Part shown: positions 16,838 to 64,000 of the stretch, in pieces
How the letters are laid out: every line of letters starts with the position of its first letter
Numbering within the stretch: the stretch's first letter is position 1
Source of the DNA: Salipaludibacillus daqingensis
GTDB taxonomy: Bacteria; Bacillota; Bacilli; Bacillales; Salisediminibacteriaceae
Reading direction: 5' to 3'
Assembly (NCBI RefSeq): GCF_029891575.1
Contig: NZ_JARZHF010000001.1
Coordinates: 248,001 to 312,000 of the forward strand
Length of the DNA: 64,000 bases
The notes under the pieces: generated by a model
Database searches by the model: none
The model's input: only the letters and a program-made list of their open reading frames with translations
What the model was told of the DNA's origin: nothing
Program-made: the position numbers and the translations under genes

Positions 16838-16866
16838 GAATATCTATCATTTAATTGTAAATGCTA
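16838..16866 (+). promoter_or_regulatory. Candidate sigma-G promoter of the DUF421 gene
   Basis: GAATA (16838-16842) and AATGCTA (16860-16866) are separated by 17 nt. This fits the sigma-G consensus GHATR / CATNHTA with one mismatch. Transcription would begin near 16873, which excludes the ATG at 16861 as start codon. Confidence 0.4.
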
Positions 16867-16902
16867 TTTTTAACCACTAACAAAAGAGGGAAGGTGAAGG
16901 GG

Positions 16903-17628
16903 TTGAACGAGACCTTTTGGTTAGATACGTTAAGAGTAATTGTTAGAATTTCAACGATCTTACCATTACTACTTGTTGTCACTTTATATATGGGAAAAAG
17001 AGCCATTGGTCAACTACCTCTGTTCGATTTTCTAGTTATCGTCACCCTCGCTTCTGTTACAGGGGCAGATATCGCTGACCCGAACATTCAACATTTCCAT
17101 ACAGTGATCGCTATTTTATTCATTGCCCTTCTACAAAAAATTGTGAGTTATCTACTCATAAATAAAAAATGGCTAGGACAAAAAATGACATTTAAACCAA
17201 CAGTGGTCATTGAACACGGTGTGCTTTTAATTAAAAATATAGAAAGTATTCGCTATTCTATTGATAATGTTTTACAGATGCTTCGAGAAAAAGACGTCTT
17301 TGATCTTTCTATCGTGAAATTAGCTATCGTGGAAGCAAATGGTAAACTAACAATTTTTCGCGAATACAAAAATAATCCTGTTACAATAGAAGATCTCAAT
17401 ATAAATAAAAAATCTTCTAACCTTGCTTACCCAGTGATTATCGAAGGGCAAGTATATGTTAATATGCTAAAATATTTAAACCTGTCTTTAAGTTGGTTAC
17501 ATACAGAACTGCAGAAAAAAGGCATTAATCATATGGAACATGTTTTGTTTGCCAGTGTCAGTGAAGAAGGCTACCTTCATATATCATTAAAAAATCAAAC
17601 CAATAAAGGCATGCCATTTCATCACTAA
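16903..17628 (+). CDS. DUF421 (YetF-type) membrane protein, spoVA-associated
   Basis: 241 residues. Three N-terminal membrane helices (VRISTILPLLLVVTLYMG; LFDFLVIVTLASVTGADI; TVIAILFIALLQKIVSYLL) are followed by a soluble YetF/DUF421 domain. Members of this family occur in the mobile spoVA-2mob operon and affect spore properties there. Here the gene is convergent to spoVAEb rather than in its operon. TTG 16903 is chosen because AAGGTGA lies 5 nt upstream and the candidate promoter covers ATG 16861; GTG 16894 is an alternative. The exact biochemical role is unknown. Confidence 0.75.
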   Translation: MNETFWLDTLRVIVRISTILPLLLVVTLYMGKRAIGQLPLFDFLVIVTLASVTGADIADPNIQHFHTVIAILFIALLQKIVSYLLINKKWLGQKMTFKPTVVIEHGVLLIKNIESIRYSIDNVLQMLREKDVFDLSIVKLAIVEANGKLTIFREYKNNPVTIEDLNINKKSSNLAYPVIIEGQVYVNMLKYLNLSLSWLHTELQKKGINHMEHVLFASVSEEGYLHISLKNQTNKGMPFHH

Positions 17629-17704: not shown

Positions 17705-18055
17705 TTACCCTTTTGGTTTAAACAGTAAAGCTGCAATAAAACTGAAAATAATCGCTGAAGAAATACCTGCGCTTGTCACTTCAAATATTCCAGTTAAAAT
17801 ACCAACCCACCCATTTTGTTCTGCTTCTGTTATAGCGCCATGAACGAGTGCATTACCAAAACTTGTGATAGGAACTGTTGCCCCTGCACCTGCAAAATCA
17901 ATGAGCGGTTCATATAAGCCAATGCCATCTAAAACAGCACCTGATACAACTAACGTACTAAGTGTATGAGCGGGTGTTAATTTTCCAACGTCCAATAATA
18001 CTTGACCAATGACACAAATAATACCGCCAACAATAAACGCATTTACGAATATCAA
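17705..18055 (-). CDS. spoVAE: SpoVAEb-type spore DPA channel protein
   Basis: 116-residue integral membrane protein of the SpoVAC/SpoVAE family, usual length for SpoVAEb. The shared motif FAGAGATVPITSFGNALVHGA is present in part and the rest is four hydrophobic helices. SpoVA proteins move dipicolinic acid into the spore core and release it at germination. TTG start, with AAAGGAGG 9 nt upstream. It follows spoVAC by 41 bp with no spoVAD between them, which is unusual. Confidence 0.9.
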   Translation of the reverse strand: MIFVNAFIVGGIICVIGQVLLDVGKLTPAHTLSTLVVSGAVLDGIGLYEPLIDFAGAGATVPITSFGNALVHGAITEAEQNGWVGILTGIFEVTSAGISSAIIFSFIAALLFKPKG

Positions 18056-18096
18056 TCGATTTTCCTCCTTTAATTAAAATAAATAAAATAGATTAA

Positions 18097-18561
18097 TTAC
18101 AGTCCAAAAAATGTCATTTTAATGATCACAATGAAAAATGCTGCAACTACCCCAAAAACAATAACAGCCGCGGCTAATTTAAACATATTGGAGGATACAC
18201 CTAGTACATATCCTTCAGTTCGATGTTCGATTGCTGCAGAAGCCATTGAATTTGCAAAACCAGTTACAGGAACAGCCGAACCAGCTCCAGCAAAGTGTCC
18301 AAAACGGTCATAAACACCTAACCCTGTTAACAAGGTAGCTAAAAATATTAATGTTGCTACCGTAGGGTCTCCTGCTGTTTTTTCTGTAAAATCAAAATAA
18401 TATATGTAACCCGTTTGAACCAATTGTCCAAAGGTACAAACTAAACCTCCAATCAGAAAAGCCTTTATACAATTTTTCATTACTGGCCGTTTTGCTTCAT
18501 GTTTTCTTGCAATTTTTTGATACGCTCTTTGCGTTGGTGAAACTTTTGAATCCTTTGCCAT
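18097..18561 (-). CDS. spoVAC: SpoVAC, spore DPA channel protein
   Basis: 154 residues. A basic cytoplasmic N-terminus of about 28 residues precedes hydrophobic helices with the family motif HFAGAGSAVPVTGFANSM. SpoVAC of B. subtilis behaves as a mechanosensitive channel and is thought to be the DPA pore. It begins 2 nt after the YhcN-type lipoprotein gene and so shares its transcript. Confidence 0.92.
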   Translation of the reverse strand: MAKDSKVSPTQRAYQKIARKHEAKRPVMKNCIKAFLIGGLVCTFGQLVQTGYIYYFDFTEKTAGDPTVATLIFLATLLTGLGVYDRFGHFAGAGSAVPVTGFANSMASAAIEHRTEGYVLGVSSNMFKLAAAVIVFGVVAAFFIVIIKMTFFGL

Positions 18562-18563
18562 TT

Positions 18564-19007
18564 TTAAACACCTGCTTTCAAATCTTTATCAACTTTTTTC
18601 AAATCGTCTTCCAGCTGTTTTCGAGTTATTTCTTGGTCACTGAGTTTCTGTTTTAATTCTGTTAATTCCAATTCAATCTTTTTATCTGTTGATACTTCCA
18701 CTGTCCCATCTGGATTTTCAGCTTCTAATTTATCTTTCGCTTCTTTTCTAATGTCTTTTAGAAAAAATCGATCAAATCCTCTAACATCTAAATGAACATA
18801 CACATCCTTTTTATTAGAAACAGCTGTCGCATCGTCTACTCGGTCCAATTCTTTAACTGTTTTCTCTGCATCTTCAGCAACTTTCTGTGATATTTCACTA
18901 GCATCGTCTGCTGATTGTGCTTCAAATGTTTTCTGACCAGTATCACACCCACCTAGATTTAGTAATAAAAATATAAATAGAAAAATAAATGATTTCTTCA
19001 TATTCAC
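18564..19007 (-). CDS. YhcN/YlaJ-family sporulation lipoprotein
   Basis: 147 residues. Signal peptide with lipobox ending LNLGGC, then a YhcN/YlaJ-type domain (ISQKVAEDAEKTVKELDRVDDATAVSNKKDVYVHLDV in part) and a C-terminal coiled coil. Such lipoproteins sit in the spore inner membrane and are part of spoVA-2mob operons. GTG 19007 is chosen: AAAGGA lies 7 nt upstream, and the candidate sigma-G promoter at 19035-19063 rules out the ATG at 19055. First gene of a three-gene unit with spoVAC and spoVAEb. Confidence 0.82.
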   Translation of the reverse strand: MNMKKSFIFLFIFLLLNLGGCDTGQKTFEAQSADDASEISQKVAEDAEKTVKELDRVDDATAVSNKKDVYVHLDVRGFDRFFLKDIRKEAKDKLEAENPDGTVEVSTDKKIELELTELKQKLSDQEITRKQLEDDLKKVDKDLKAGV

Positions 19008-19034
19008 TTCATCATCCTTTCCGCATTCTACTTT

Positions 19035-19063
19035 TAGTATTGGAAAATCACCCATAAATATGT
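19035..19063 (-). promoter_or_regulatory. Candidate sigma-G promoter of the yhcN-type/spoVAC/spoVAEb unit
   Basis: On the minus strand ACATA (19063-19059), 17 nt, then AATACTA (19041-19035): one mismatch in each box from GHATR / CATNHTA. The start point would be about 20 nt ahead of GTG 19007. Confidence 0.35.
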
Positions 19064-19267
19064 TGGAAAAAAAGGGTAGTCAATTTATTCAATTACCACT
19101 CCATTTCAGAAATAACTAAAAAAAACACATACAAGAATTCTCCTGTACATGCTTTAATAAAATAAATGATAATAAACTCTTTACTTAGAATTAACATTTT
19201 TAATTTATACAATGGAACAATTAAAAATAGAAGATTCAGTGTGACTCCCGAAGAAGCACGAGAAGGC

Positions 19268-19960
19268 TTAAAGTTTATTCGCTTTTCCTTTTTCCTTTGT
19301 TTGTAAATCACGATACCAAAGACTATGACGATGTTTCACATAACTTTTATCTACTTTACCAGTAAACATACCTGGTAACATGTTGCGATTTTCTTTGAAT
19401 AAAAAAGCAGCCATATGCCCGATAAATGCGAATATTATCAACACTGTTCCGATGTTATGCCCCATCGTTACTATAACCATCATTGTATTTGAAATATTAA
19501 CTCCCATTAAGTTTTGATATACTTTCACGATCCCAGTTCCAATTAATAACAAAATCGCTACAGCAAATAATAAGTAAGCAAGTCGTTGTTCAGGTAAATA
19601 CTTCTCACTAGGTGGCTCTTGTTTCTTCAAAATCATCGCTTTCATTAAAATCAAAGACGCTTTCATATCACCTTTTTTTGGGATGATAGCATATTCTTTT
19701 CGAATAACATGAAAGAAAGCATGATAAATAATGATAAAAATTAAGATTGATGCAAAAATATAGTGAACCCACAATGTCATCTCATAACTTGTTAACCAAT
19801 TGGTTCCGAATGGCTGCCATAATAGATAACGACCATACAGTGGAAGCTGTCCCAAACCTGTGATGATTAACATAATAATCGAGATAGCACTTACCCAGTG
19901 AACAAACCTATTAGATTTAGATTGACGTACAATTTTTTCGGCGGAGTTGTTTTTATTCAT
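19268..19960 (-). CDS. Cytochrome b subunit, formate-dehydrogenase gamma type
   Basis: Integral membrane diheme cytochrome b of 230 residues with four membrane helices. His residues suited to heme b binding occur at RFVHWVSA, LWVHYIFA, YHAFFHV and MGHNIGTV. It resembles the FdoI/FdnI and NarI-like electron-transfer subunits that pass electrons between a periplasmic-side enzyme and menaquinone. ATG 19960 is chosen by AGAGGAGGAG 7 nt upstream; it overlaps the iron-sulfur gene by 8 nt. No catalytic subunit is linked. Confidence 0.8.
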   Translation of the reverse strand: MNKNNSAEKIVRQSKSNRFVHWVSAISIIMLIITGLGQLPLYGRYLLWQPFGTNWLTSYEMTLWVHYIFASILIFIIIYHAFFHVIRKEYAIIPKKGDMKASLILMKAMILKKQEPPSEKYLPEQRLAYLLFAVAILLLIGTGIVKVYQNLMGVNISNTMMVIVTMGHNIGTVLIIFAFIGHMAAFLFKENRNMLPGMFTGKVDKSYVKHRHSLWYRDLQTKEKGKANKL

Positions 19961-20966
19961 TCGAAGACTCCTCCTCTTTTTCACCTTTTAACGTTTTATA
20001 AGCAGTTATCCCTGCAGCAGCAGCTCCTGCTACTGGAGCTATCATCATAGCTAACGTGAAGCCATGAGCTGTATCAAGTAAATTTTCCACATCTGGTTTC
20101 ATATGTGGTCGCCCAGGACGTTGGTCATTATTTGCTTGTTTATCTTTAGCAATTGCCTCATCTATTATTTCAAACGGAACGTCTGATACGTACAATGTAT
20201 GTGTGCCACCATTTTCATCATCACCATACACATAACCACCAATTTCTTCTGCTCTGGTAGACGCCTCTTGTTTGATTTGATTTAGTGGACCAAACGTAAT
20301 GGCATCTTTTGGACAACTGGTTTCACAAGCTGGCTTTTGTCCTTTTTCAAGTAAGTCAACACACATATCACACTTAAACATGACTCCTCCACCTGCTAAG
20401 TCAGGCATAAGATTCATGTATATTCCAACTCCAGCTTGGCGTTGTGGAATATCCCATGGACAAGCTGAGCGACATTTTGCTCCTCCCATACAGAAGTCTT
20501 CATCAATCGTAACTGCTCCATGCTCACTTTTGTGAATCACACCAAAAGGACATAGTTTTTGACAAGTTGCATCATCACAATGCATACATCTGCGAGGAAC
20601 GGAAACTTTTTTCGTCACTCCGTTATGCTCTACTTCTACCTTATCAACAAACGTCCAGTTGTAAGGTGTCAGCCTGCCCGTTTGATCTTGTTCCCCTGAC
20701 CAATCTTCATGGTGTTTTTGTGGCCAATAATCTTTTATCGGTTTTTCCGGTTGAGGAAATCGATCAGCATTTTTCGTTTTGCAAGCCGTCACACAAAGTG
20801 GAGTATCTTCCAATTCACACCCATCGCATTTCGTCAAATCAATAATCGATCCAATCTGTTTTGAATCCTCTACCCCTGTTGCCGAAACCCATTTTTGTTT
20901 TGTTGTCATTACAGCCGCAGCAGCTGTTGCTGCGCTTGCTCGTTTGATAAATGATCTTCTATCCAC
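19953..20966 (-). CDS. Tat-exported 4Fe-4S dicluster subunit (FdhB/HybA/NrfC type)
   Basis: 337 residues. It begins with a twin-arginine signal (MDRRSFIKRASAATAAAAV), then carries Cys clusters in the FdhB-like pattern: CDGCELEDTPLCVTAC; CMHCDDATCQKLCPFG; CMGGAKCRSACPW; CDMCVDLLEKGQKPACETSCP. These fit four 4Fe-4S clusters. A hydrophobic stretch near the C-terminus (TLAMMIAPVAGAAAAGITA) could anchor it. The GTG start has GGAGGGGA upstream. Expected role: electron transfer between an exported molybdoenzyme and the adjacent cytochrome b. No molybdopterin subunit is present nearby. Confidence 0.82.
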   Translation of the reverse strand: MDRRSFIKRASAATAAAAVMTTKQKWVSATGVEDSKQIGSIIDLTKCDGCELEDTPLCVTACKTKNADRFPQPEKPIKDYWPQKHHEDWSGEQDQTGRLTPYNWTFVDKVEVEHNGVTKKVSVPRRCMHCDDATCQKLCPFGVIHKSEHGAVTIDEDFCMGGAKCRSACPWDIPQRQAGVGIYMNLMPDLAGGGVMFKCDMCVDLLEKGQKPACETSCPKDAITFGPLNQIKQEASTRAEEIGGYVYGDDENGGTHTLYVSDVPFEIIDEAIAKDKQANNDQRPGRPHMKPDVENLLDTAHGFTLAMMIAPVAGAAAAGITAYKTLKGEKEEESSNE

Positions 20967-28164: not shown

Positions 28165-28315
28165 CATAGTTGCAGAATATGATTTGTGCAAAACAAGATG
28201 CTAATTTTTCACAGAAAAATCCAATATTGCTTTCGATCTGTGAAACAGATGTCTCAGAATACGTGAAGATTTCACACACGTTCCCTATGTCATCTATCAT
28301 CTTTTTTACCGTCAT

Positions 28316-28456
28316 ATCCTTCTCCCATCCAGACTTTACTGTCGGCTTTGGAGTTTCACCAAATCCACCGTTGCTAAAAGTAGCACCGGGTCACGGACTT
28401 AAAGGCTTTGCCTTATCACCGCCGGTTGGGAATTTCACCCTACCCCGAAGGAACGG
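28316..28456 (-). promoter_or_regulatory. FMN riboswitch (RFN element)
   Basis: Read on the minus strand the conserved RFN blocks appear in order: TTCGGGGTAGGGTGAAATTC, ACCGGCGGTGAT, AGTCCGTGACCCG, GGATTTGGTGAAACTCC, AAAGCCGACAGTAAAGTC and GGATGGGAGAAGGA. It controls ribD-ribE-ribBA-ribH. The open frame on the plus strand here is not a gene. Confidence 0.97.
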
Positions 28457-30557: not shown

Positions 30558-30577
30558 GGGCCATCTTGGCAATCCAT

Positions 30578-30749
30578 CAGGATAGTGCTCCACTACATAT
30601 TGCAGTGACAGTGAGTAGTTTATTCAACTACCCCCCAGTTTACTAAAGGAAGGAACCTTTAGTTACTTCGGCAAATTGACCTTTCTATAGCTCTCATCGC
30701 TTCCTTACACTCAAGCTATGTACTGATTCTTTTTGCACCTCTACCTATT
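30578..30749 (-). promoter_or_regulatory. Lysine riboswitch (L box)
   Basis: On the minus strand the L-box blocks are present: AGAGGTGC at the 5' end (30742-30735), GCCGAAG in the core, and CACTGTCA...TGGAGCACTATC at the 3' end. A strong terminator follows before lysA. Attenuation of lysA by lysine is expected. Confidence 0.93.
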
Positions 30750-30914
30750 GTTCGTTCTATTTTAGTTAAATTAGTTTTTTTAAACAATATCATACTCTTC
30801 ATCATCCTGCAACTGTCTTCTACAATAATTGCAACGTCCACTATTATAGAGAATGAATGAAGTATTATCAATAAAAAAGATTTGTTTTCATGTTTTATTA
30901 TTTATCCGAATCAG
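30750..30914. other. Intergenic region between spoVAF and the L box
   Basis: No gene seen. The lysA promoter should be here, but I cannot fix its boxes. Confidence 0.4.
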
Positions 30915-32402
30915 TTACGTATTGCTTTGTCTTATGATATTTTTGGGATGCACAATGCTAGGTCTCTTACGTTTAATTGGAATCGCACGTCTAATGAGAA
31001 TATCTACAAATGCTTTTGGATAGAAAGGTAGAAAAGGCCACAGATAAGGCGCATTTAAAGCCTTTGATTGAACAAGCAAGATGAATAAAACGGTTGTTCC
31101 AATTACAAAACCAGGAACATTAAATAACGCAACTAAAATGATTAAAGCAAGTCGAAGCATCTTTAATGCAACTCCTAATTCATAACTTGGAGTCGCGAAC
31201 ATTCCAATTGCACCTAATGCAACATAGAGAATAACCTCAGAAACAAACAAACCAACTTCGATAGCTATTTCTCCTATTAACAATGCAGCAACAAGTCCTA
31301 GCGCTGTGGCTAAAGGCGAAGGTGTGTGTATTGCTGCCATCCTCAAAAGCTCAATACCAATTTCCGCAAAAATGATTTGTAAAAAAATAGGAACAGTAAA
31401 ATCATCGTCTTCAGGCCCAATAAATTCCAAAGTTTCAGGAAGTAATTCTGGTTGTTGAACTAGCAATAACCATAAAGGTAAGATAAACAAAGCAAACAGC
31501 ATTCCAGAAAAGCGGACCCAGCGAAAAAACGTACCAGCTATTGGTGCTTGCCGGTATTCTTCTGCATGTTGCACATGATGAAAAAATGTTGCTGGAAAAA
31601 TGATAACACTTGGGGAAGCATCAACGAATAGAATAACATGGCCTTCTAAAAGATGAGTAGCGGCCACATCTGGTCTTTCCGTATAGCGAACCATCGGAAA
31701 AGGATTAAGTCCTTGTTTAACTATAAATTCTTCCACTTCTTTATCAGCCATCGTTAGGCCGTCTATATCGATTGCTTCTAATTCTTTACGAATGATTTCG
31801 ACAAGATCAGGGTCTGCAACACCTTCAATATAAGATAGACTTAAGTCGGTCTTTGAGCGACGCCCTACTTGCATAATTTCATTCCGTAATCGTTCGTCAC
31901 GAATTCTCCTTCTCGTTAACGCCGTATTCTCAATGATGTTTTCAGTATATCCGTCACGACTACCTCTGACAACCTTCTCTGTGTCTGGTTCTTCAGGACC
32001 TCGACCTGGATAACTTCTAACATCCACTATAAGCGCTTCAGACTCACCTTCTATGAGGATGAAAATTAATCCAGACAACATTTGAGTAATCGCTTTATCT
32101 AATGTATCCGTTTCCTCCACTTGCACATGAGTGAGTCGGTTCACAATTTGATCTTTGACACTGGATTCTTTTCGTTCAACAGCATCTAAGAACATTAATT
32201 CCTTCAATAATTCAATAATATATTGAATATCACATAAACCATTCACAAAATAAAATTGTATTTCTTTATCAAAAACATATATTTTTCGTACGTCGACATC
32301 AAAACTGGTGCCAATCCCCACTCTTTTTTTTATTATACGTTCATTTTCATGTATATCTCCTGAAATAGGATGGTCAATCTTTGTTTCATCTTGGTGGCTC
32401 AC
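30915..32402 (-). CDS. spoVAF: SpoVAF, GerA-family spore membrane protein
   Basis: 495 residues. GerA-subunit-like architecture: a soluble N-terminal domain of about 290 residues (with PSVIIFPATFFHHVQHAEEY just before the membrane part) and five or so hydrophobic helices to the C-terminus. In B. subtilis it is the last gene of the spoVA operon and affects germination. GTG start with AAAGGAG 8 nt upstream; it overlaps the end of spoVAEa by 17 nt. Confidence 0.93.
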   Translation of the reverse strand: MSHQDETKIDHPISGDIHENERIIKKRVGIGTSFDVDVRKIYVFDKEIQFYFVNGLCDIQYIIELLKELMFLDAVERKESSVKDQIVNRLTHVQVEETDTLDKAITQMLSGLIFILIEGESEALIVDVRSYPGRGPEEPDTEKVVRGSRDGYTENIIENTALTRRRIRDERLRNEIMQVGRRSKTDLSLSYIEGVADPDLVEIIRKELEAIDIDGLTMADKEVEEFIVKQGLNPFPMVRYTERPDVAATHLLEGHVILFVDASPSVIIFPATFFHHVQHAEEYRQAPIAGTFFRWVRFSGMLFALFILPLWLLLVQQPELLPETLEFIGPEDDDFTVPIFLQIIFAEIGIELLRMAAIHTPSPLATALGLVAALLIGEIAIEVGLFVSEVILYVALGAIGMFATPSYELGVALKMLRLALIILVALFNVPGFVIGTTVLFILLVQSKALNAPYLWPFLPFYPKAFVDILIRRAIPIKRKRPSIVHPKNIIRQSNT

Positions 32403-32964
32403 GAAGACCGCTCCTTTCCATTATTATTTGAATAGCTTTTTTTGTGATAGGTGCTCCCACTTCAAAGTCGTCAAACCCTCCCATTTTCCCTACATCTCCA
32501 ATCCCAATAATGATTGGTTCATCATGAACATTTAACAGATCTACCGTATCCCCTCTAATTCTTTTTACTACTGTTTCTTTAATTCCAGCTTTATCCACTC
32601 CGTACTCAGTAATTTCACCAAACCGATCGACACATATATCAACGTTTGTCCAGTCGTTCGTGTCTGAATGGGCTGCAACGGCAATGATCCCTAGTACGTA
32701 TATAAATGGGGAGTTAGCAACTTCTTTCATTCGCTTTTCACCAGGTCCTGTGCCTGGAAACCCTGCATCATCAAATAAAATAATAACCGGCTCCAAAGGT
32801 GCCTCCATAATTTTTTTTATTAAAACCTCAGTCTTAACAAAACTTGGATTCCCTTTGGATAAAGATAGAAAATAACATTGAAGGGTATCAGCAGCAACTT
32901 TCACTGCATTTACGGCTGAATCATCGCCATCTGTAATGAAGATAACTTTTTTCCTTGCTGTCAT
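32386..32964 (-). CDS. spoVAEA: SpoVAEa
   Basis: 192 residues, soluble, with the family features FITDGDDSAVNAVKVAA and FDDAGFPGTGPGEKRM. It belongs to the spoVA operon in B. subtilis, between spoVAEb and spoVAF; function not clear. Here it directly follows sigF, with a candidate sigma-G promoter in the 91-bp gap, because spoVAA to spoVAEb are missing from this locus. Confidence 0.92.
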   Translation of the reverse strand: MTARKKVIFITDGDDSAVNAVKVAADTLQCYFLSLSKGNPSFVKTEVLIKKIMEAPLEPVIILFDDAGFPGTGPGEKRMKEVANSPFIYVLGIIAVAAHSDTNDWTNVDICVDRFGEITEYGVDKAGIKETVVKRIRGDTVDLLNVHDEPIIIGIGDVGKMGGFDDFEVGAPITKKAIQIIMERSGLREPPR

Positions 32965-33007
32965 ATATTCACCTTTTTTCGTCTTAACTATAACGTTCGT
33001 ACGAACT

Positions 33008-33037
33008 TAGTATGAGTGAAACATTGGAAAACAATAC
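33008..33037 (-). promoter_or_regulatory. Candidate sigma-G promoter of spoVAEa-spoVAF
   Basis: On the minus strand GTATT (33037-33033), 18 nt, then a perfect CATACTA (33014-33008). The palindrome GTTCGTACGAAC (32995-33006) covers the predicted start point. Confidence 0.5.
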
Positions 33038-33072
33038 AAAAAAAACAACTCAACATCATTCGTTGAGTTGTT
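33037..33072 (-). terminator. Terminator at the end of sigF
   Basis: AACAACTCAAC / GTTGAGTTGTT stem followed by eight T on the minus strand; the sigF stop codon is within the loop. Confidence 0.88.
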
Positions 33073-33814
33073 CTTTTAACTGATTTAAAATTTTCTTCTC
33101 TAATCGAGATACTTGTACTTGAGAAATCCCTAAACGATCAGCTACTTGTGATTGAGTCTGATCTTTATAATATCGCAGATAGATAATAAGTTTTTCTCTT
33201 TCATTGAGCTTATCGATTTCATCTCTTAATGCAATTCTTTCAAACCATTTCCCATCTTCTTTATTTGAAATTTGGTCAAGGATTGTTATTGGATCACCGT
33301 CATTTTCATATACTGTTTCATGAATAGATGCTAGTTGTCGACTGGCTTCTTGTGCAAAAACGACCTCTTCTGGTGATATATCTAATTTTTGAGCAATTTC
33401 TTGAATGGTAGGAACTCTACCTAGTGTTTTTGATAATTCATCATTCATTTTTCTAATATGATTACCGGTTTCTTTAATAGACCGACTTACTTTTACCGTT
33501 CCATCATCCCTTAGAAAACGCTGTATTTCTCCAATTATCATTGGGACGGCATATGTTGAAAATTTCACTTCATAACTTAAGTCAAATTTATCAACAGACT
33601 TGATTAAACCAATACAACCTATTTGAAATAAATCCTCCTGATCATACCCTCGATTCATAAATCTTTGCACAACAGACCATACAAGTCTTGTATTGTGTTT
33701 GACGATTCTATTTCTAGCGTCTAAATCGCCCTTCTGTGCAATAGCTATCAATCTTTTAACTTCATCGTCTTGTAAATGCTTCTGTTTTTCTTTTTTATAA
33801 TCCAAATTCGTCAT
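33056..33814 (-). CDS. sigF: Sporulation sigma factor F
   Basis: 252 residues. Forespore-specific sigma-70 factor with region 2 (GYDQEDLFQIGCIGLIKSVDKFD in part; YAVPMIIGEIQRFLRDDG), region 3 and region 4 HTH (QSQVADRLGISQVQVSRLEKKIL). It is held inactive by SpoIIAB until septation. Third gene of spoIIAA-spoIIAB-sigF, 9 bp after spoIIAB. Confidence 0.97.
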   Translation of the reverse strand: MTNLDYKKEKQKHLQDDEVKRLIAIAQKGDLDARNRIVKHNTRLVWSVVQRFMNRGYDQEDLFQIGCIGLIKSVDKFDLSYEVKFSTYAVPMIIGEIQRFLRDDGTVKVSRSIKETGNHIRKMNDELSKTLGRVPTIQEIAQKLDISPEEVVFAQEASRQLASIHETVYENDGDPITILDQISNKEDGKWFERIALRDEIDKLNEREKLIIYLRYYKDQTQSQVADRLGISQVQVSRLEKKILNQLKEQLNE

Positions 33815-51793: not shown

Positions 51794-51818
51794 CAATCCA
51801 TCTTCACCAAAAACACAT

Positions 51819-51889
51819 TACTCGTATAACTGTGAGAATATGGCTCACGAGTCTCTACCAAACAACCATTAATTGTTTGCCTACGAGTG
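51819..51889 (+). promoter_or_regulatory. Guanine riboswitch
   Basis: Purine-type aptamer: P1 ACTCGT / ACGAGT, core ATAA, GTGAG/CTCAC (P2), ATATGG, TCTCTACC, and P3 AAACAA / TTGTTT. The ligand-pairing base before the 3' P1 strand is C (GCC-TACGAG), which specifies guanine or hypoxanthine rather than adenine. Confidence 0.95.
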
Positions 51890-51911
51890 ACAAAAATTGA
51901 GTAGCTTACGG

Positions 51912-57652: not shown

Positions 57653-58759
57653 ATGCTATCTATATATGTTATCATCCTAATTCTTATACTTGTTTGGACA
57701 ATAGTAAACGGATTCAGTCTCCCTTTGCTGAAAACATCATCAAATAAAGAACTAGATAAGAACAAAAAAGTATCTATTCTCATTCCGATGAGAAACGAGG
57801 AAAGAAATATCGCTCCACTCATTGATTCTCTAAAAGAGTTAACTTACGAAAATATGGAATTTATTTTTCTTAATGACGGCTCGAAAGATCGCACGAAAGA
57901 ACTTTTCTATGAAAAAATAGAAGCTGACAATCGTTTTACTCTCATCGAAGGGAAGCCATTACCATCAGAATGGATTGGAAAAGTTCATGCTTGTTATCAG
58001 CTCTCGAAAAAAACAACGGGCGATTATTTGCTATTTTTAGATGCTGATGTAAGAGTCCATCCCAGAACTATTGAAAGAAGCTTACAAGCTTTCTCCACTA
58101 ACACTGGGTTAGTTACTGGGTTTCCTCGTTATCCATTAAAGAGCTTTCTCGGGCATTTGCTCGTACCGATGCAACATTTTGTTGTCTATTTACACTTGCC
58201 TGTATTTCTTGCTAATTTAACGACTTGGCCCGCTGCAACTGCTGCTCACGGCGCGTATATGATGTTTCGTCGTGACGCTTACGAAAAAGCGGGTGGACAC
58301 GAAAAGGTTAAAAATTCATTAGTGGAAGATGTGCATATTACGAGAGAAATCAAAAAAAACGGGTATCAAGTAAAGCTTGTAAACAACACAAACACGGTAC
58401 TTTGTCATATGTATGAAACGAATAAAGAGGTTTGGGAAGGCTTTTCTAAAAATCTCTTTCCTGGACTTGGTCGAAATCCTTTCCTTGTGATAGCACTAGT
58501 GATTTTCTATTTTATTTTTATGATCTTCCCTTTTCCATTAGCTATTTATGGGATCTTCACGTTGGATTTCCTTCTCATCTTGCCTCTTTTACTAACGATG
58601 ATGATCAAGTTATTTATTGATATTATGACAAGACAAAAATGGTGGCTATTTGTCGTTACACCATTTTCGTTATTTTTTATGGTATTACTTATGGTTTATT
58701 CCACCTATTTAGGATTATCTAACAAAGGATTCACATGGAAAGGAAGAACCTATCAATGA
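57653..58759 (+). CDS. Family-2 glycosyltransferase (CrtQ-like)
   Basis: 368 residues. GT2 fold with ILIPMRNEERN, the metal site LDADVRV, and EDVHITREIKKNG, plus three C-terminal membrane helices. It is placed and shaped like CrtQ, which glucosylates diaponeurosporenoate in staphyloxanthin synthesis. 3 bp after the acyltransferase gene. Confidence 0.87.
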   Translation: MLSIYVIILILILVWTIVNGFSLPLLKTSSNKELDKNKKVSILIPMRNEERNIAPLIDSLKELTYENMEFIFLNDGSKDRTKELFYEKIEADNRFTLIEGKPLPSEWIGKVHACYQLSKKTTGDYLLFLDADVRVHPRTIERSLQAFSTNTGLVTGFPRYPLKSFLGHLLVPMQHFVVYLHLPVFLANLTTWPAATAAHGAYMMFRRDAYEKAGGHEKVKNSLVEDVHITREIKKNGYQVKLVNNTNTVLCHMYETNKEVWEGFSKNLFPGLGRNPFLVIALVIFYFIFMIFPFPLAIYGIFTLDFLLILPLLLTMMIKLFIDIMTRQKWWLFVVTPFSLFFMVLLMVYSTYLGLSNKGFTWKGRTYQ

Positions 58760-60234
58760 ACACACAAAAGCAAGCTGTCGTCATAGGAGGTGGATTAGCA
58801 GGATTATCTGCCGCCATCCGCCTCCAATATGAAGGATTTCAAACAACAATATTGGAGAAAAATAATGATATCGGTGGGAAGTTGCATGAAGTTAGCCTAG
58901 GAACGCATCGATTCGACTTTGGTCCGAATACAATTACGATGCCCCACGTGTTTCAATCTGTTCTATCTGATGTAGGTGAAAATCCCGATAACTATTTCCA
59001 ATTTGTTCCATTAGAAACACATACGAAGAATGTTTTTGAAGATGGTTCTCACCTCTATTTTTCTTCTAATCACGAAAAAATGATCGACGAGTTAAGTCGT
59101 CTTGATGCTCAATCAGCTTTGAACTATCCTCAATATTTAAAAGAAGTTAAAAAACTTTACCAATTAGCGAACCATCATTTTTTCCACCGAACTTTTTCTT
59201 CTTGGAAAGACTATTTATCGATTCCATTGGCGAAATCTATGTTGTCTGCAAAACCAATGGAAAACCTAGACCACTTTCACCGGAAATTTTTCAAGGATGA
59301 ACGTATCATTCGCGCTTTTAATCGTTATGCTACATATATTGGTTCTTCTCCGTACAATGCTCCTGCTACGTTTGGTTTGATTGGTCATTTGGAGATGGGC
59401 GACGGGGTTTATTATACAAAGGGAGGAAATGCACAAATTGCTGCCGGATTTAAAAATGCAGCCGAAAAATTAGGCGTAACCATTTTATGTAATGAAGAAG
59501 TGATTAAAGGCCATGCAGTTAATAAACAACTCACTTCCGTTGAAACCTTAAGTGGAGAGAGATACCATGCTGATGTTTTTGTTTTAAACGGAGATTTGCT
59601 TACACAATATCCAAGATTAATAAACGAGAGTGATCGCCCATCTTTTTCAAATAAAAAAGTCGATAGTTATGAGCCGTCCATTTCCGCATTTGTCATCCTT
59701 GCTGCTACGTCAGAAAGATTTGACCTTCACCACCACCAAGTTTACTTTGGGAATGAAGTGAAACAGGAGTTCAACGATATTTTCAAAAAAGGGCTATATG
59801 GTACGGATCCTACTATTTACTTATGTACCTCTTCAAAGACTGAACCTTCTATGTCACCAGATGGGGACAACTTATTTATTTTAGTAAATGCACCGCCACT
59901 AAAAAATAGAAACAACGAAATGTTTGATCGAATGGAAATGGAACAAAGAATTTATCAACATCTTGAAGCAAAAGGTCTGTCTATTCGTCCTTCGTTGGAA
60001 CAGTCCAAAGTCGTCGATCCTCAAACTTTAGCAAATAACTATTATGCATACAGAGGAGCTCTTTATGGTGTTGCTTCAAATAGAAGAAAAGATACGTTTT
60101 TAAGGCCATATAACCGCTCACAAGATTTACACAACTTATTTTTTGCAGGTGGGAGTACTCATCCTGGTGGTGGCTCACCAATGGTCGTCCTTAGTGGACA
60201 AAATGTTGCGAAACGGATTATTCAAGAATACTAA
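58756..60234 (+). CDS. CrtN-family carotenoid oxidase/desaturase (third paralogue)
   Basis: 492 residues. FAD-binding VIGGGLAGLSAAIRL at the N-terminus and the C-terminal GGSTHPGGGSPMVVLSG signature of phytoene-desaturase-type enzymes. Position with the glycosyltransferase suggests a CrtP/CrtNc role, oxidising the chain end to aldehyde or acid. ATG 58756 overlaps the previous stop (ATGA). Confidence 0.9.
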   Translation: MNTQKQAVVIGGGLAGLSAAIRLQYEGFQTTILEKNNDIGGKLHEVSLGTHRFDFGPNTITMPHVFQSVLSDVGENPDNYFQFVPLETHTKNVFEDGSHLYFSSNHEKMIDELSRLDAQSALNYPQYLKEVKKLYQLANHHFFHRTFSSWKDYLSIPLAKSMLSAKPMENLDHFHRKFFKDERIIRAFNRYATYIGSSPYNAPATFGLIGHLEMGDGVYYTKGGNAQIAAGFKNAAEKLGVTILCNEEVIKGHAVNKQLTSVETLSGERYHADVFVLNGDLLTQYPRLINESDRPSFSNKKVDSYEPSISAFVILAATSERFDLHHHQVYFGNEVKQEFNDIFKKGLYGTDPTIYLCTSSKTEPSMSPDGDNLFILVNAPPLKNRNNEMFDRMEMEQRIYQHLEAKGLSIRPSLEQSKVVDPQTLANNYYAYRGALYGVASNRRKDTFLRPYNRSQDLHNLFFAGGSTHPGGGSPMVVLSGQNVAKRIIQEY

Positions 60235-60316
60235 CAAAGTATATTTTTGTGTTCAAAGCTACGATTTCGTTGCACTACAAAACGAAATTGCAATATTTAT
60301 TATTACCATCGAAACA

Positions 60317-60355
60317 AAAAAGAAGGAGAACCTAATTACTGGTTTTCCTTCTTTC
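60317..60355. terminator. Bidirectional terminator between the carotenoid operons
   Basis: AAGAAGGAGAACC / GGTTTTCCTTCTT with one G-T pair, A/T tracts on both sides. Confidence 0.8.
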
Positions 60356-60358
60356 CAT

Positions 60359-61195
60359 TTAACTTTCTATAGCACTTAATATTTGCTTTTTTTCTCGACT
60401 TGAAACAAATGCGCGTTTATGAAAAACATCGTAGTCATTTGCCCTCACAGAATTTAAAATTTCACGATAAAAATGTGCAGCAGCTTTCACTGGCATCCTA
60501 GCATTTAATGGATATAAGTGCATTAATTCAAGGCCTTCCTGATAATAATTTTCCGCTAGATGAGCTAATTCTTCCCATAAAGAGATGAATGATTCATTCA
60601 CCTGTTTATTATTTAACATCATATGTGTATAACCATGATCTTTCATCAATTGAGTAGGTATATAAATACGATCACGCTCGAAATCTTCCCCAATGTCTCG
60701 TAAAATATTCGTGATTTGCATGGCATATCCTAATGAAACGGCACTTTGTTTCAACTGCTCTTGATTTGTTGGAGACAAAATAGGCAATAACATCAACCCT
60801 ACCGTACTAGCAACGTGATAAGAGTAATTGATTAATTCATCCACCGATTCATATCGATTTTTTTTCAAATCCATTTCTTGACCATAAATCATCTCATAAA
60901 ATGGTTTAATATCAAATGTGAAATTTTTAAATGTATCTTCTAATGCAATCCAAAGGAAAGAAGAATCAGGTTGCTTTCCTAGTATAAACATATCAAGTTG
61001 ATGCTTGAATTTCTTAAGTTCTTCTTCTGGATTGATCCCTTCATCAACAATATCATCTGCTTTTCGACAAAACGCATAAACTGCCCATACAGCTTGACGC
61101 TTTTTCTTAGGTAAATGTTGGAATGCTTTCGCAAATGTTTTCGAATGATACTCAATAACATTCTTACATTGAAGATATGCATCATTAACGAGCAT
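60359..61195 (-). CDS. crtM: Diapophytoene synthase (squalene/phytoene synthase family)
   Basis: 278 residues. Condenses two prenyl diphosphates head to head. Both Asp-rich motifs are visible: DDIVDE (47-52) and the DIGEDFERDR region. C30 (farnesyl) rather than C40 product is inferred from the CrtN-type partners. ATG 61195 has AAAGGAGAGG upstream; the open frame continues to 61327 without a ribosome site and would add a hydrophobic extension not seen in the family. Confidence 0.92.
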   Translation of the reverse strand: MLVNDAYLQCKNVIEYHSKTFAKAFQHLPKKKRQAVWAVYAFCRKADDIVDEGINPEEELKKFKHQLDMFILGKQPDSSFLWIALEDTFKNFTFDIKPFYEMIYGQEMDLKKNRYESVDELINYSYHVASTVGLMLLPILSPTNQEQLKQSAVSLGYAMQITNILRDIGEDFERDRIYIPTQLMKDHGYTHMMLNNKQVNESFISLWEELAHLAENYYQEGLELMHLYPLNARMPVKAAAHFYREILNSVRANDYDVFHKRAFVSSREKKQILSAIES

Positions 61196-61323
61196 CGCCT
61201 TCCTCTCCTTTCTAAGTATCTTTTTTATAAAGGAATAATCAATTACACTTTTGAATAATAGGAGAAAAAACGAATAAATAAATGATTGAAATAAGATTTT
61301 TCTCCTTACTTTTTCTGTTAAAC

Positions 61324-62781
61324 TCACGATAATTGGCTATTATTTACCGCATCTTCATCATCTAAAAATTGAGATAACACTTTTGCTCCTTGCATGACAA
61401 TTGGTACTCCCCCACCTGGATGAATCGATGCTCCAACAGCATAAACATTATCATAATCAAATGGTTTTACTTGAGGACGAAATACCCCCGATTGGAATAA
61501 TGTTGGTGCTAAACCAAAACTTCCTCCTTCAAACAAGCCGTCTCTTTTTGATTCAAAAGGTGTTCGAACTTGCTTCCACAAAATTTTATTATAAATATTT
61601 TCATCTAAACGTTCTTTGATTTCGTGAAGCATTTTATCCGCAAAAGCTAGATATTCCTCTTTGGAAATCTCCTTTGAAGTAGGAACTGGTATCAACATGT
61701 ATGCGACACTTTTCCCTTCTGGGGCAAGAGTTTCATCAATTAAAGATGGGTGAAACAAATAAAATGATGGGTCTTCTGGTAATTTTTTTTGCACAAAAAT
61801 TTCATCCATTTGTTGATCTAAGTCGCTTCCCATAAAAAATTGATGAACGTAATTGGTATTTAATTTTCCTTCTATTCCTAAATAAATGAGAACACATCCG
61901 GAAGATGGGATATAAGAACGATTTGTCGTCTTATTAACAAGCTTTTCGGCTATAGGAAAATCTCCATTTAATATAAAGCGATCAAAATAATGCTTTTCTC
62001 CATGAACCGTAAGCGAAGTGGCTATACCTTTGCTTAATTCTACCTCTTGTACGTCAGCATTATATTCAATTGTTACCCCTCGCTTTTCTAATTCGTCTGT
62101 TAGGACTTCAGCAAGATGGGCATACCCACCTTTAATATACCAGATACCATGTTGATGTTCACTAAATGGAACAAGAGAATAAATCGCTGGCGTATGTTCA
62201 GGGGAACCACCTATATACAAGGTTTGTAAAGAAAATGCTTCTTGTAATTTTTTAGCTTGAAAATATTTTTTTGACTGATTTTTCACCGATTGATAAGCTT
62301 TCAGTTTCACAAGTGTTTTGACATTCTTTCTAGTCCAAAAGGATCGCTTTCTAACAAACGGTTGCTCTAAAAAAGCTTTTGATCCTTTTTCAAATCTATC
62401 AGCCATATCTTTCATATATAAAGAAAAATGATCACTTTCACCTGGAAAATGTTTTTCAATTTCCTCTTTTTGCTTATTAACGTTACTCCACTTATGAAAA
62501 GATGTTCCATCACGAAAGTGAAGAGGATAAGTTGGGTCAATTTGCACCATGTCAATTTGTGATAAATCAACGTTTACATCTTGTAAAATATTCCGAATCA
62601 TTTGAGGGAGTAGAACAATGGTTGGTCCTTCATCAATTTTGAACCCATCCTGTTCTGTAAACGCTAAACGACCTCCTAATTTATGCATTCTTTCAAATAT
62701 CGTAACGTTTTCACCTTTTTGATTTAAGTATAATGCAGTGATCATTCCACCAATTCCACCACCGACGATGGCATTGTTCAT
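61324..62781 (-). CDS. CrtN-family carotenoid desaturase/oxidase (second paralogue)
   Basis: 485 residues. FAD motif AIVGGGIGGMITALYL and C-terminal GASIHPGGGVPIVMQGAK. Likely desaturase or terminal oxidase (CrtNa/CrtNb type). Overlaps the previous gene by 4 nt (ATGA); GAGGAGGTGA ribosome site. Confidence 0.92.
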   Translation of the reverse strand: MNNAIVGGGIGGMITALYLNQKGENVTIFERMHKLGGRLAFTEQDGFKIDEGPTIVLLPQMIRNILQDVNVDLSQIDMVQIDPTYPLHFRDGTSFHKWSNVNKQKEEIEKHFPGESDHFSLYMKDMADRFEKGSKAFLEQPFVRKRSFWTRKNVKTLVKLKAYQSVKNQSKKYFQAKKLQEAFSLQTLYIGGSPEHTPAIYSLVPFSEHQHGIWYIKGGYAHLAEVLTDELEKRGVTIEYNADVQEVELSKGIATSLTVHGEKHYFDRFILNGDFPIAEKLVNKTTNRSYIPSSGCVLIYLGIEGKLNTNYVHQFFMGSDLDQQMDEIFVQKKLPEDPSFYLFHPSLIDETLAPEGKSVAYMLIPVPTSKEISKEEYLAFADKMLHEIKERLDENIYNKILWKQVRTPFESKRDGLFEGGSFGLAPTLFQSGVFRPQVKPFDYDNVYAVGASIHPGGGVPIVMQGAKVLSQFLDDEDAVNNSQLS

Positions 62782-64000
62782 ATCTTCACCTCCTCTTTAC
62801 TATACTTTTTGATTAATAAACTAGCTGTAATTCTTGCAGATTCAAAAATCGTTGGTAGACCACTTCCAGGATGTGTTCCCCCTCCAACAAGCCATAGTCG
62901 ATCAATTTCATTAAATTGGTTATGAGGTCTGAAATACATCATTTGACCTAAATTATGAGCAAGATTAAACGTTGCTCCTTTATAAACATGTTTTTGATGT
63001 TCCCAATCGTATGGTGTAAGCACTTTTTCTACTTCAATATTACTTTCTAAATCTTTTAATCCAGTTCTTTTCTTTATCTGATTAAAAATCAATTCTCTAA
63101 ATGTATCTGTTTCATTGTTCCAATCAATTCCACTGAAATTATTCGGTACTGGAGCTAAAATATACAGAGCTGATTTTCCTTGTGGAGCCAGTGTCGGATC
63201 TGTTACGGATGCATTTTGTACGTAAATAGAAGGATTATCCGATAAAATTTTCGTTTTCGTAATCTCTTCCACGTTTTTCTTGTAGTCATCTGAAAACAAT
63301 ATGGTATGATGATCCAAATCAATTGGTTGATTGACACCAGCATAAATCATAAAAGTCGAACAAGAATACTTTTTCTTTTGCAAATGAATATTTTTAAATT
63401 TACGTCTTTTATCGTCATCAATTAATTTTGTCATCCCTTGTGCAAAATCAGCATTCATGATTACATCATCGGCCTCAACCAACTCTCCATCATCTAATTC
63501 TAACCCTGTTACTGCTCGACGATCATCAAGAAGAAGTTTTTTCACACCAACTCCAGTATGAATTTCTCCACCATGTTCTTTCACAACTTTTGCCATGGAC
63601 TTTGTTAATTGATTTAAGCCCCCAATAGGATGGAATACTCCATACTCATGTTCCATAAATGAAAGAATACTAAATGCTCCTGGGCAATCCCAAGGAGACA
63701 TTCCTAAATATTTGGATTGGAATGTAAAGGATAATTTCAAACGTTCGTCATCAAAGTATTTAGACAAAACTTCATACAACGACTTTCCTAATTCCAACTG
63801 AGGAAGCGCTTTTAGCGTTCTAAGCCGCATATAATCAAACAAAGAAGCATGGTTATTTTGCAAAATTGGAGAAAGTGCTGCCATTTTTTTTCTTGTATCA
63901 ACCATAAAACGTTCGTAACTTTCTCCATTCCCTGGAAATAATTGTTCAATATTTTTTTTCATTTTATCAGGATCTCTTGTCGCTCTTATTGTCATCTCAT
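62778..64000 (-). CDS. CrtN-family carotenoid desaturase (first paralogue, 5' part outside window)
   Basis: About 407 C-terminal residues are visible; the N-terminal FAD-binding GxGxxG segment lies beyond the right edge. The frame is open through 64000, so the ATG at 63995 is internal. C-terminal signature GGGTHPGSGLPTIFESAR, plus PWDCPGAFSILSFMEHEYG. Probable diapophytoene desaturase; first visible gene of the crtN-crtN-crtM unit. Confidence 0.92.
   Translation of the reverse strand, partial: EMTIRATRDPDKMKKNIEQLFPGNGESYERFMVDTRKKMAALSPILQNNHASLFDYMRLRTLKALPQLELGKSLYEVLSKYFDDERLKLSFTFQSKYLGMSPWDCPGAFSILSFMEHEYGVFHPIGGLNQLTKSMAKVVKEHGGEIHTGVGVKKLLLDDRRAVTGLELDDGELVEADDVIMNADFAQGMTKLIDDDKRRKFKNIHLQKKKYSCSTFMIYAGVNQPIDLDHHTILFSDDYKKNVEEITKTKILSDNPSIYVQNASVTDPTLAPQGKSALYILAPVPNNFSGIDWNNETDTFRELIFNQIKKRTGLKDLESNIEVEKVLTPYDWEHQKHVYKGATFNLAHNLGQMMYFRPHNQFNEIDRLWLVGGGTHPGSGLPTIFESARITASLLIKKYSKEEVKI

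Follow-up and report, generated by a model that had tools for sequence, protein, structure and literature searches.

Evidence that a spoVA2-type gene set of Salipaludibacillus daqingensis is divided between two sites, with a spoVAD differing in ancestry from spoVAC and spoVAEb

The window, i.e., the whole stretch of 64,000 nucleotides analysed here, harbors on its reverse strand a unit of three genes coding for a YhcN/YlaJ-type sporulation lipoprotein (NJ), SpoVAC (C) and SpoVAEb (Eb); spoVAD is abbreviated as D, and the genome containing the window is referred to as G000. The unit and its neighbours are the following:

16861..17628, + strand: DUF421 (YetF-type) gene, convergent neighbour outside the unit (PF04239 only)
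17705..18055, - strand: spoVAEb, putative channel subunit, TTG start (TIGR02839, 171.3 bits; cut-off 131.1)
18056..18096, - strand: C-Eb spacer of 41 bp, at the place of spoVAD in the intact congeners
18097..18561, - strand: spoVAC, putative channel subunit (TIGR02838, 201.4 bits; cut-off 164)
18564..19001, - strand: NJ lipoprotein gene, putative cap; the reading frame is readable from 19055
19035..19066, - strand: conserved two-block element CCAACATA-N-ATACTA, candidate forespore (sigma-G-like) promoter
19268-19984, - strand: b-type cytochrome gene, upstream neighbour outside the unit
19953-20966, - strand: HybA-like ferredoxin gene, upstream neighbour outside the unit

An earlier note on this DNA had given the coordinates, gene order, strand and 41-bp gap correctly; it was also right in comparing the unit with the mobile operon spoVA2mob and in reporting spoVAD and DUF1657 genes as missing from it. 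According to the accessible part of PMC5133452, the order of spoVA2mob is DUF1657, YhcN/YlaJ, C, D, Eb, DUF1657, and DUF421+DUF1657, and the lipoprotein gene of the window occupies the position of the YhcN/YlaJ gene in this order. In the profile scan its product scored 21.8 bits against PF09580, under the cut-off of 26.3; two of the four orthologues located at the same place exceeded this value (26.9 and 29.8 bits) and two did not (23.4 and 25.1 bits). The ATG at 19001 is the more likely start, since a lipobox-like LNLGGC follows it and the alternative at 19055 falls within the conserved upstream element. Inspection of the 41-bp spacer by eye did not reveal any recognisable spoVAD remnant. As for the DUF421 gene, the note had placed it on the opposite strand, and it does lie on the + strand; it is not, nevertheless, the gene of the operon in inverted orientation, because the domain scan found no DUF1657 domain in it and because it occurs at the same place in six of the seven congeners (G001, G002, G003, G005, G006 and G007), genomes with an intact operon included. 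It was not detected at that place in G004. The DUF421+DUF1657 gene of the operon type is located on another contig (C5).

The window also includes the sigF site, and other features were recognised in it:

28313-28456: FMN riboswitch
30575-30751: lysine riboswitch
30915-32402, - strand: spoVAF (PF03323, GerA family, 525.6 bits), named by its place between spoVAEa and lysA
32386-32964, - strand: spoVAEa (PF14097, 223.4 bits)
51802-51903: purine riboswitch
58735-60234: gene for an amine-oxidase-type protein (PF01593)
60359-61327: gene for a squalene/phytoene synthase family protein (PF00494)

The last two belong to a stretch of carotenoid-cluster-like genes (57653-63995), whose CrtN-like neighbours were judged by eye. 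Canonically, the genes AA-AB-AC-AD-AEb-AEa-AF lie between sigF and lysA. In the window, only spoVAEa and spoVAF are present there, directly after sigF (TIGR02885, 365.7 bits; stretch sigF-spoVAEa-spoVAF, 30915-33814), as the remainder of a canonical spoVA operon from which the core genes are absent. Among the eight genomes of the genus, SpoVAEa was found in two (G000 and G007) and a SpoVAF match at the sigF site in all of them.

The genome (4.58 Mb, 27 contigs, 99.99% complete) was searched for SpoVAD, SpoVAA and SpoVAB, as the earlier note had proposed. One full-length SpoVAD was retrieved, on contig C5 (PF07451, 509.4 bits), which aligns with the solved SpoVAD structures 3lma and 3lm6 over almost the entire length; the profile searches did not retrieve any SpoVAA or SpoVAB from the genome, and the C and Eb of the window were the sole PF03862 members found. 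A complete spoVA operon elsewhere in the genome, the finding that according to the note would speak against its reading, was therefore not found by these searches. On C5, the genes are arranged in the order DUF1657 - spoVAD - DUF1657 - DUF421+DUF1657, and the three genes flanking spoVAD all scored above their cut-offs. Taken together, the window and C5 contain all seven gene kinds of spoVA2mob, with C, D and Eb each found in a single copy; in the numbering of that operon, the window contributes genes 2, 3 and 5, and C5 genes 1, 4, 6 and 7. The note had left two possibilities for the three-gene unit. The first, a SpoVAD borrowed from elsewhere, is supported by the occurrence of the single SpoVAD in a cluster with exactly the missing spoVA2mob genes. 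The second, a different transport system, found no support, since no family member besides C and Eb was found in the genome, D is full length and dpaA is present. The dpaA gene scored above the cut-off in all 15 genomes scanned, that of the window included, and in one of 14 control genomes. With 41 bp between C and Eb and D on a different contig, the three genes do not lie within one operon; this counts against the statement that the set is a spoVA2 operon, not against its parts working like one.

Related genomes were compared for the same three-gene unit (G000-G007, all belonging to the genus). The site of the window is flanked by a DUF3907 gene (labelled ypuI) and the D-alanyl-D-alanine carboxypeptidase gene dacB. 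Five congeners (G001 and G004-G007) harbor an intact NJ-C-D-Eb unit there, with a spoVAD of about 1.0 kb in the place of the 41-bp spacer; G002 and G003 share with G000 the NJ-C-Eb arrangement, with D elsewhere. In these three genomes the D cluster is enclosed by a nitroreductase gene and a DUF4003 gene, and in G000 it is accompanied there by a fumarase-type gene and two others. No spoVA gene was found between the nitroreductase and DUF4003 genes of G001, G005, G006 and G007, so that this second site is empty, and no close nitroreductase was found in G004 (best identity 41%). The C-Eb spacers of G000, G002 and G003 are too divergent for a common deletion scar to tell one loss from two. More generally, D accompanies C in 78 of the 80 named SpoVAC loci (80 kept of 140), CUR1 and S. 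aurantiacus being the exceptions.

Moreover, the ferredoxin/cytochrome pair (19268-20966), which has no catalytic subunit immediately adjoining, lies upstream of the unit in G000, G002 and G003 and is absent from that place in G001 and G004-G007. Residue 28 of SpoVAC is Gly in the five intact congeners and Met or Leu in the three swapped ones; this is one of four columns found post hoc, with G008 and G010 as counterexamples, and its co-change with the exchange of D is a weak lead.

The exact pattern CCAACATA-N-ATACTA, which was defined post hoc from the same sequences then searched, occurs in seven of the eight Salipaludibacillus genomes (not in G004), always just upstream of the lipoprotein gene, and no further occurrence was found elsewhere in the 283 loci compared. 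A scan with a sigma-G consensus took in 11 upstream stretches, eight of lipoprotein genes and three of D clusters. The element of the window matches this consensus with 9/11, a score equalled by 64 of 300 shuffles of the window stretch. The best scores upstream of the lipoprotein genes were equalled by 61-111 of 300 shuffles in seven stretches and by 9 of 300 in G004, and those upstream of the D clusters by 4-16 of 300; in G001, G004, G005 and G007 the best match differs from the conserved element. The element may represent a forespore promoter, of which the consensus scores are no proof.

The ancestry of the three proteins was then analysed. The rows of the trees are the matched parts of the proteins rather than whole sequences, and the D tree covers a chosen subset of 37 spoVA2-type D rows. 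In the C, D and Eb trees, the sequences of G000 fall among the non-canonical (spoVA2-type) rows. The C of the window groups with that of its congeners (95* in the quick tree, 87 in the second tree), with G013 of another genus inside the clade, and its Eb groups with the Eb of the congeners (96*). The second C, D and Eb trees, which gave the value of 87 and the counts of split-label changes reported below, leave out the long or broken rows L163, L186, L179, L201 and L156 where present. The D sequences of G000, G002 and G003 group with that of G036 (100/99), a genome of another family with a complete spoVA2 operon, and a single clade of all eight Salipaludibacillus D was rejected (lnL 123.8 lower, p-AU 3.97e-06); the separation of G000 D and G002/G003 D together from G036 has weak support (88/67). 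According to these trees, D in the genome of the window differs in ancestry from C and Eb, and its source appears to be a different lineage of bacteria. As C and Eb follow the genus and D does not, the channel and cap would have stayed and the plug would have been exchanged.

A tree was built from 20 marker proteins, most of them (18) from the neighbourhood of the window. It places G000 as the sister of G007 (100/100) and G002 as that of G003 (100/100); it does not settle how the main groups of the genus branched, and the gain and losses of D could not be ordered on it. The identity between G000 and G002 is 82% for D and 84% for the neighbouring nitroreductase, which fits an old gain of D. As the second site of G007 is empty and its D is the resident one, the events are explained most simply by a common ancestor of G000, G007, G002 and G003 with both D genes, the resident one being kept in G007 and the foreign one in the other three; the alternative would be a transfer between lineages. 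The swapped species do not form a clade, the sister of G000 being intact, and for this reason either a loss in G007 or a transfer must be added.

Three other explanations of the divided gene set can be weighed against such an exchange. The genome is a draft in 27 contigs, and spoVAD might have been dropped from it by the assembly; given that a single contig carries C and Eb without a break, and that the same state is found in two congeners and in G043, G045 and G112 of other families, each assembled in one to three contigs, we regard this as scarcely credible. A simple break of the operon, in which the resident spoVAD was relocated by rearrangement and no foreign gene was involved, would agree with two complementary clusters and with single copies of C, D and Eb. 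However, the genes of the two clusters alternate along the spoVA2mob order, which a single break cannot produce, and the D of G000, G002 and G003 lies outside that of the congeners (by the same AU test), while C and Eb lie inside the genus; this explanation is therefore very unlikely.

Hardly more probable is a channel able to function in the complete absence of SpoVAD, carrying DPA (dipicolinic acid) or another solute. It is suggested by the lack of spoVAD in the window unit and by the occurrence of D-less C-Eb units in several families; yet every genome found with such a unit (G000, G002, G003, G043, G045, G088, G090, G104 and G112) has a strong SpoVAD elsewhere. Furthermore, a comparison of G002 and G003, both of which are split, shows similarly strong constraint on C, Eb and D (pN/pS 0.04 for C and D and 0.05 for Eb, with synonymous change unsaturated), and the SpoVA systems treated in the accessible text of PMC13059800 need each of C, D and Eb to accumulate DPA.

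The exchange of the plug is the reading that we consider well founded and very probably correct: a spoVA2-type DPA transporter would be encoded in two clusters, the window providing the C/Eb channel with the NJ cap and C5 a D plug that derives from a foreign spoVA2 unit and replaced the resident D. The part of PMC13059800 that could be consulted deals with the B. cereus group, in whose SpoVA2 the channel is predicted to consist of C2 and Eb2, with D2 bound at the cytoplasmic face as a plug and NJ2 at the outer face as a cap; the four proteins co-purify, and in B. subtilis carrying this operon instead of its native one, none of the four is dispensable. Given this architecture, the window would make the cap and the channel, and C5 the plug; DPA import by the mixed complex is likewise deduced from that work. 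In detail, an ancestor with an intact NJ-C-D-Eb unit would have acquired, at another site, a spoVA2 unit of foreign origin, and two D genes would have coexisted for a time, after which the foreign D was kept and the resident one lost; the foreign C, Eb and NJ, if brought along, would have been lost as well. The channel is expected in the inner forespore membrane, with the lipoprotein as its cap and SpoVAD supplied as the cytoplasmic plug; assembled in one complex, NJ, C, Eb and D would import DPA in sporulation and help with its release in germination.

The distribution of such arrangements was checked in other spore-formers. In a sample of 60 genomes, that of the window included, SpoVA genes were found in 49, and D lies apart from C in five of these (G000, G002, G003, G043 and G045). 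A different division is seen in G008 (L153, L154), G010, G016, G023, G028 and G032, where Eb lies apart with NJ at the old site and C and D are together elsewhere; the second, C-D units of these six genomes carry DUF1657 and DUF421 genes where those were detected. No Eb was found in G030 and G034, two assemblies of which one comprises 190 contigs and the other reaches 76% completeness. Eleven genomes from two genera of the same family (G011, G012, G017, G018, G020, G021, G024, G027, G029, G031 and G033) gave no SpoVAD or SpoVAC/SpoVAEb match; they have perhaps lost sporulation, and two of them are only 80% complete.

A second sample, overlapping with the first, comprised 110 genomes of the order, 109 of them with SpoVA genes. 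Counted from the best 150 matches, D lies apart from C in at least seven of the 109, from five families (G000, G043, G045, G088, G090, G104 and G112). The separation was confirmed on the DNA for G088, G090, G104 and G112, and gene adjacency was otherwise read by eye; for G104, two further, weaker SpoVAD matches were counted. In G073 the D cluster is present, and C and Eb were not located among the matches listed. The same partition, DUF1657-D-DUF1657-DUF421 on one side and C-Eb on the other, is found in four families (f1, f12, f29 and f40); an NJ gene next to C was detected only in f1 and f29. In a further family (f10: G043 and G088) the sole D is of the spoVA1 type and lies at sigF, and C and Eb are of the spoVA2 type with NJ adjoining. 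In G043, SpoVAB (122.9 bits) and SpoVAA (69.1 bits) are encoded between this D and sigF, so that AA, AB, D and AF would be retained in this operon, from which C and Eb would have been lost. The split label changes five times on the D tree (at least four forced by starred branches), the corresponding counts being 6 and 3 on the C tree and 6 and 2 on the Eb tree; the changes may be gains or losses. G072, with two units and two D genes, resembles an intermediate state. An orphan spoVA1-type spoVAD is located at sigF with spoVAF in G078 (L263, 5634-6620) and G138 (L264, 5598-6587), with SpoVAEa too in G078; no C or Eb adjoins it, and both genomes have a spoVA2-type C-D-Eb set elsewhere.

On balance, we lean towards a broader interpretation, held with less confidence than the reading of the window genome, in which the plug formed by SpoVAD can be exchanged. 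The resident D would have given way, in several spore-former lineages, to a foreign or paralogous one, usually accompanied by a DUF1657/DUF421 module, the resident channel and cap being kept, and natural DPA transporters of mixed origin would exist; in G043 and G088 a spoVA1-type plug encoded at sigF would have to serve a spoVA2-type channel and cap.

Compared with the known spoVA2 and spoVA2mob operons (Tn1546 of Bacillus subtilis; spoVA2 of the B. cereus group), the same seven gene kinds are present here, but they are located at two sites on different contigs (NJ-C-Eb and DUF1657-D-DUF1657-DUF421/DUF1657), and D is of other ancestry than C and Eb. With the canonical operon (spoVA1) between sigF and lysA, the set shares the families of C and Eb, and spoVAEa and spoVAF are still at the canonical site; it differs in that AA, AB, C, D and Eb are missing from that site and that C, Eb and D are of the non-canonical type in the trees. 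The genome encodes counterparts of all four subunits of the SpoVA2 tetramer NJ2/C2/D2/Eb2 described in the accessible text of PMC13059800; here they are known from their genes, and the assembly, with subunits of mixed origin, is a predicted one. Mobile spoVA2 operons and additional spoVA copies were already known from the available portions of PMC5133452, PMC6907783 and PMC5376575, and an element with SpoVAEb, SpoVAD and an unknown gene is mentioned in PMC6907783, so that partial sets had been seen before. The open-access literature, the accessible parts of PMC5133452, PMC3533761, PMC6907783 and PMC5376575 included, yielded no account of a plug exchange or of a spoVA2 set that is divided, subscription papers lying mostly outside the search. 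As far as this search goes, the part families are all known; what is new is that the set is divided, that its ancestry is mixed and that the division recurs.

Where the partition recurs, D is associated with the DUF1657/DUF421 module and NJ with Eb, whether Eb is alone or with C, and this pattern is a clue to the role of the DUF1657 and DUF421 proteins, about which little is understood. Spore resistance and germination both depend centrally on the DPA channel; plug and channel are usually encoded in one operon. A plug and a channel of differing ancestry, together with close relatives that have the original plug, would offer matched and mismatched pairs for locating the residues by which the plug fits its channel.
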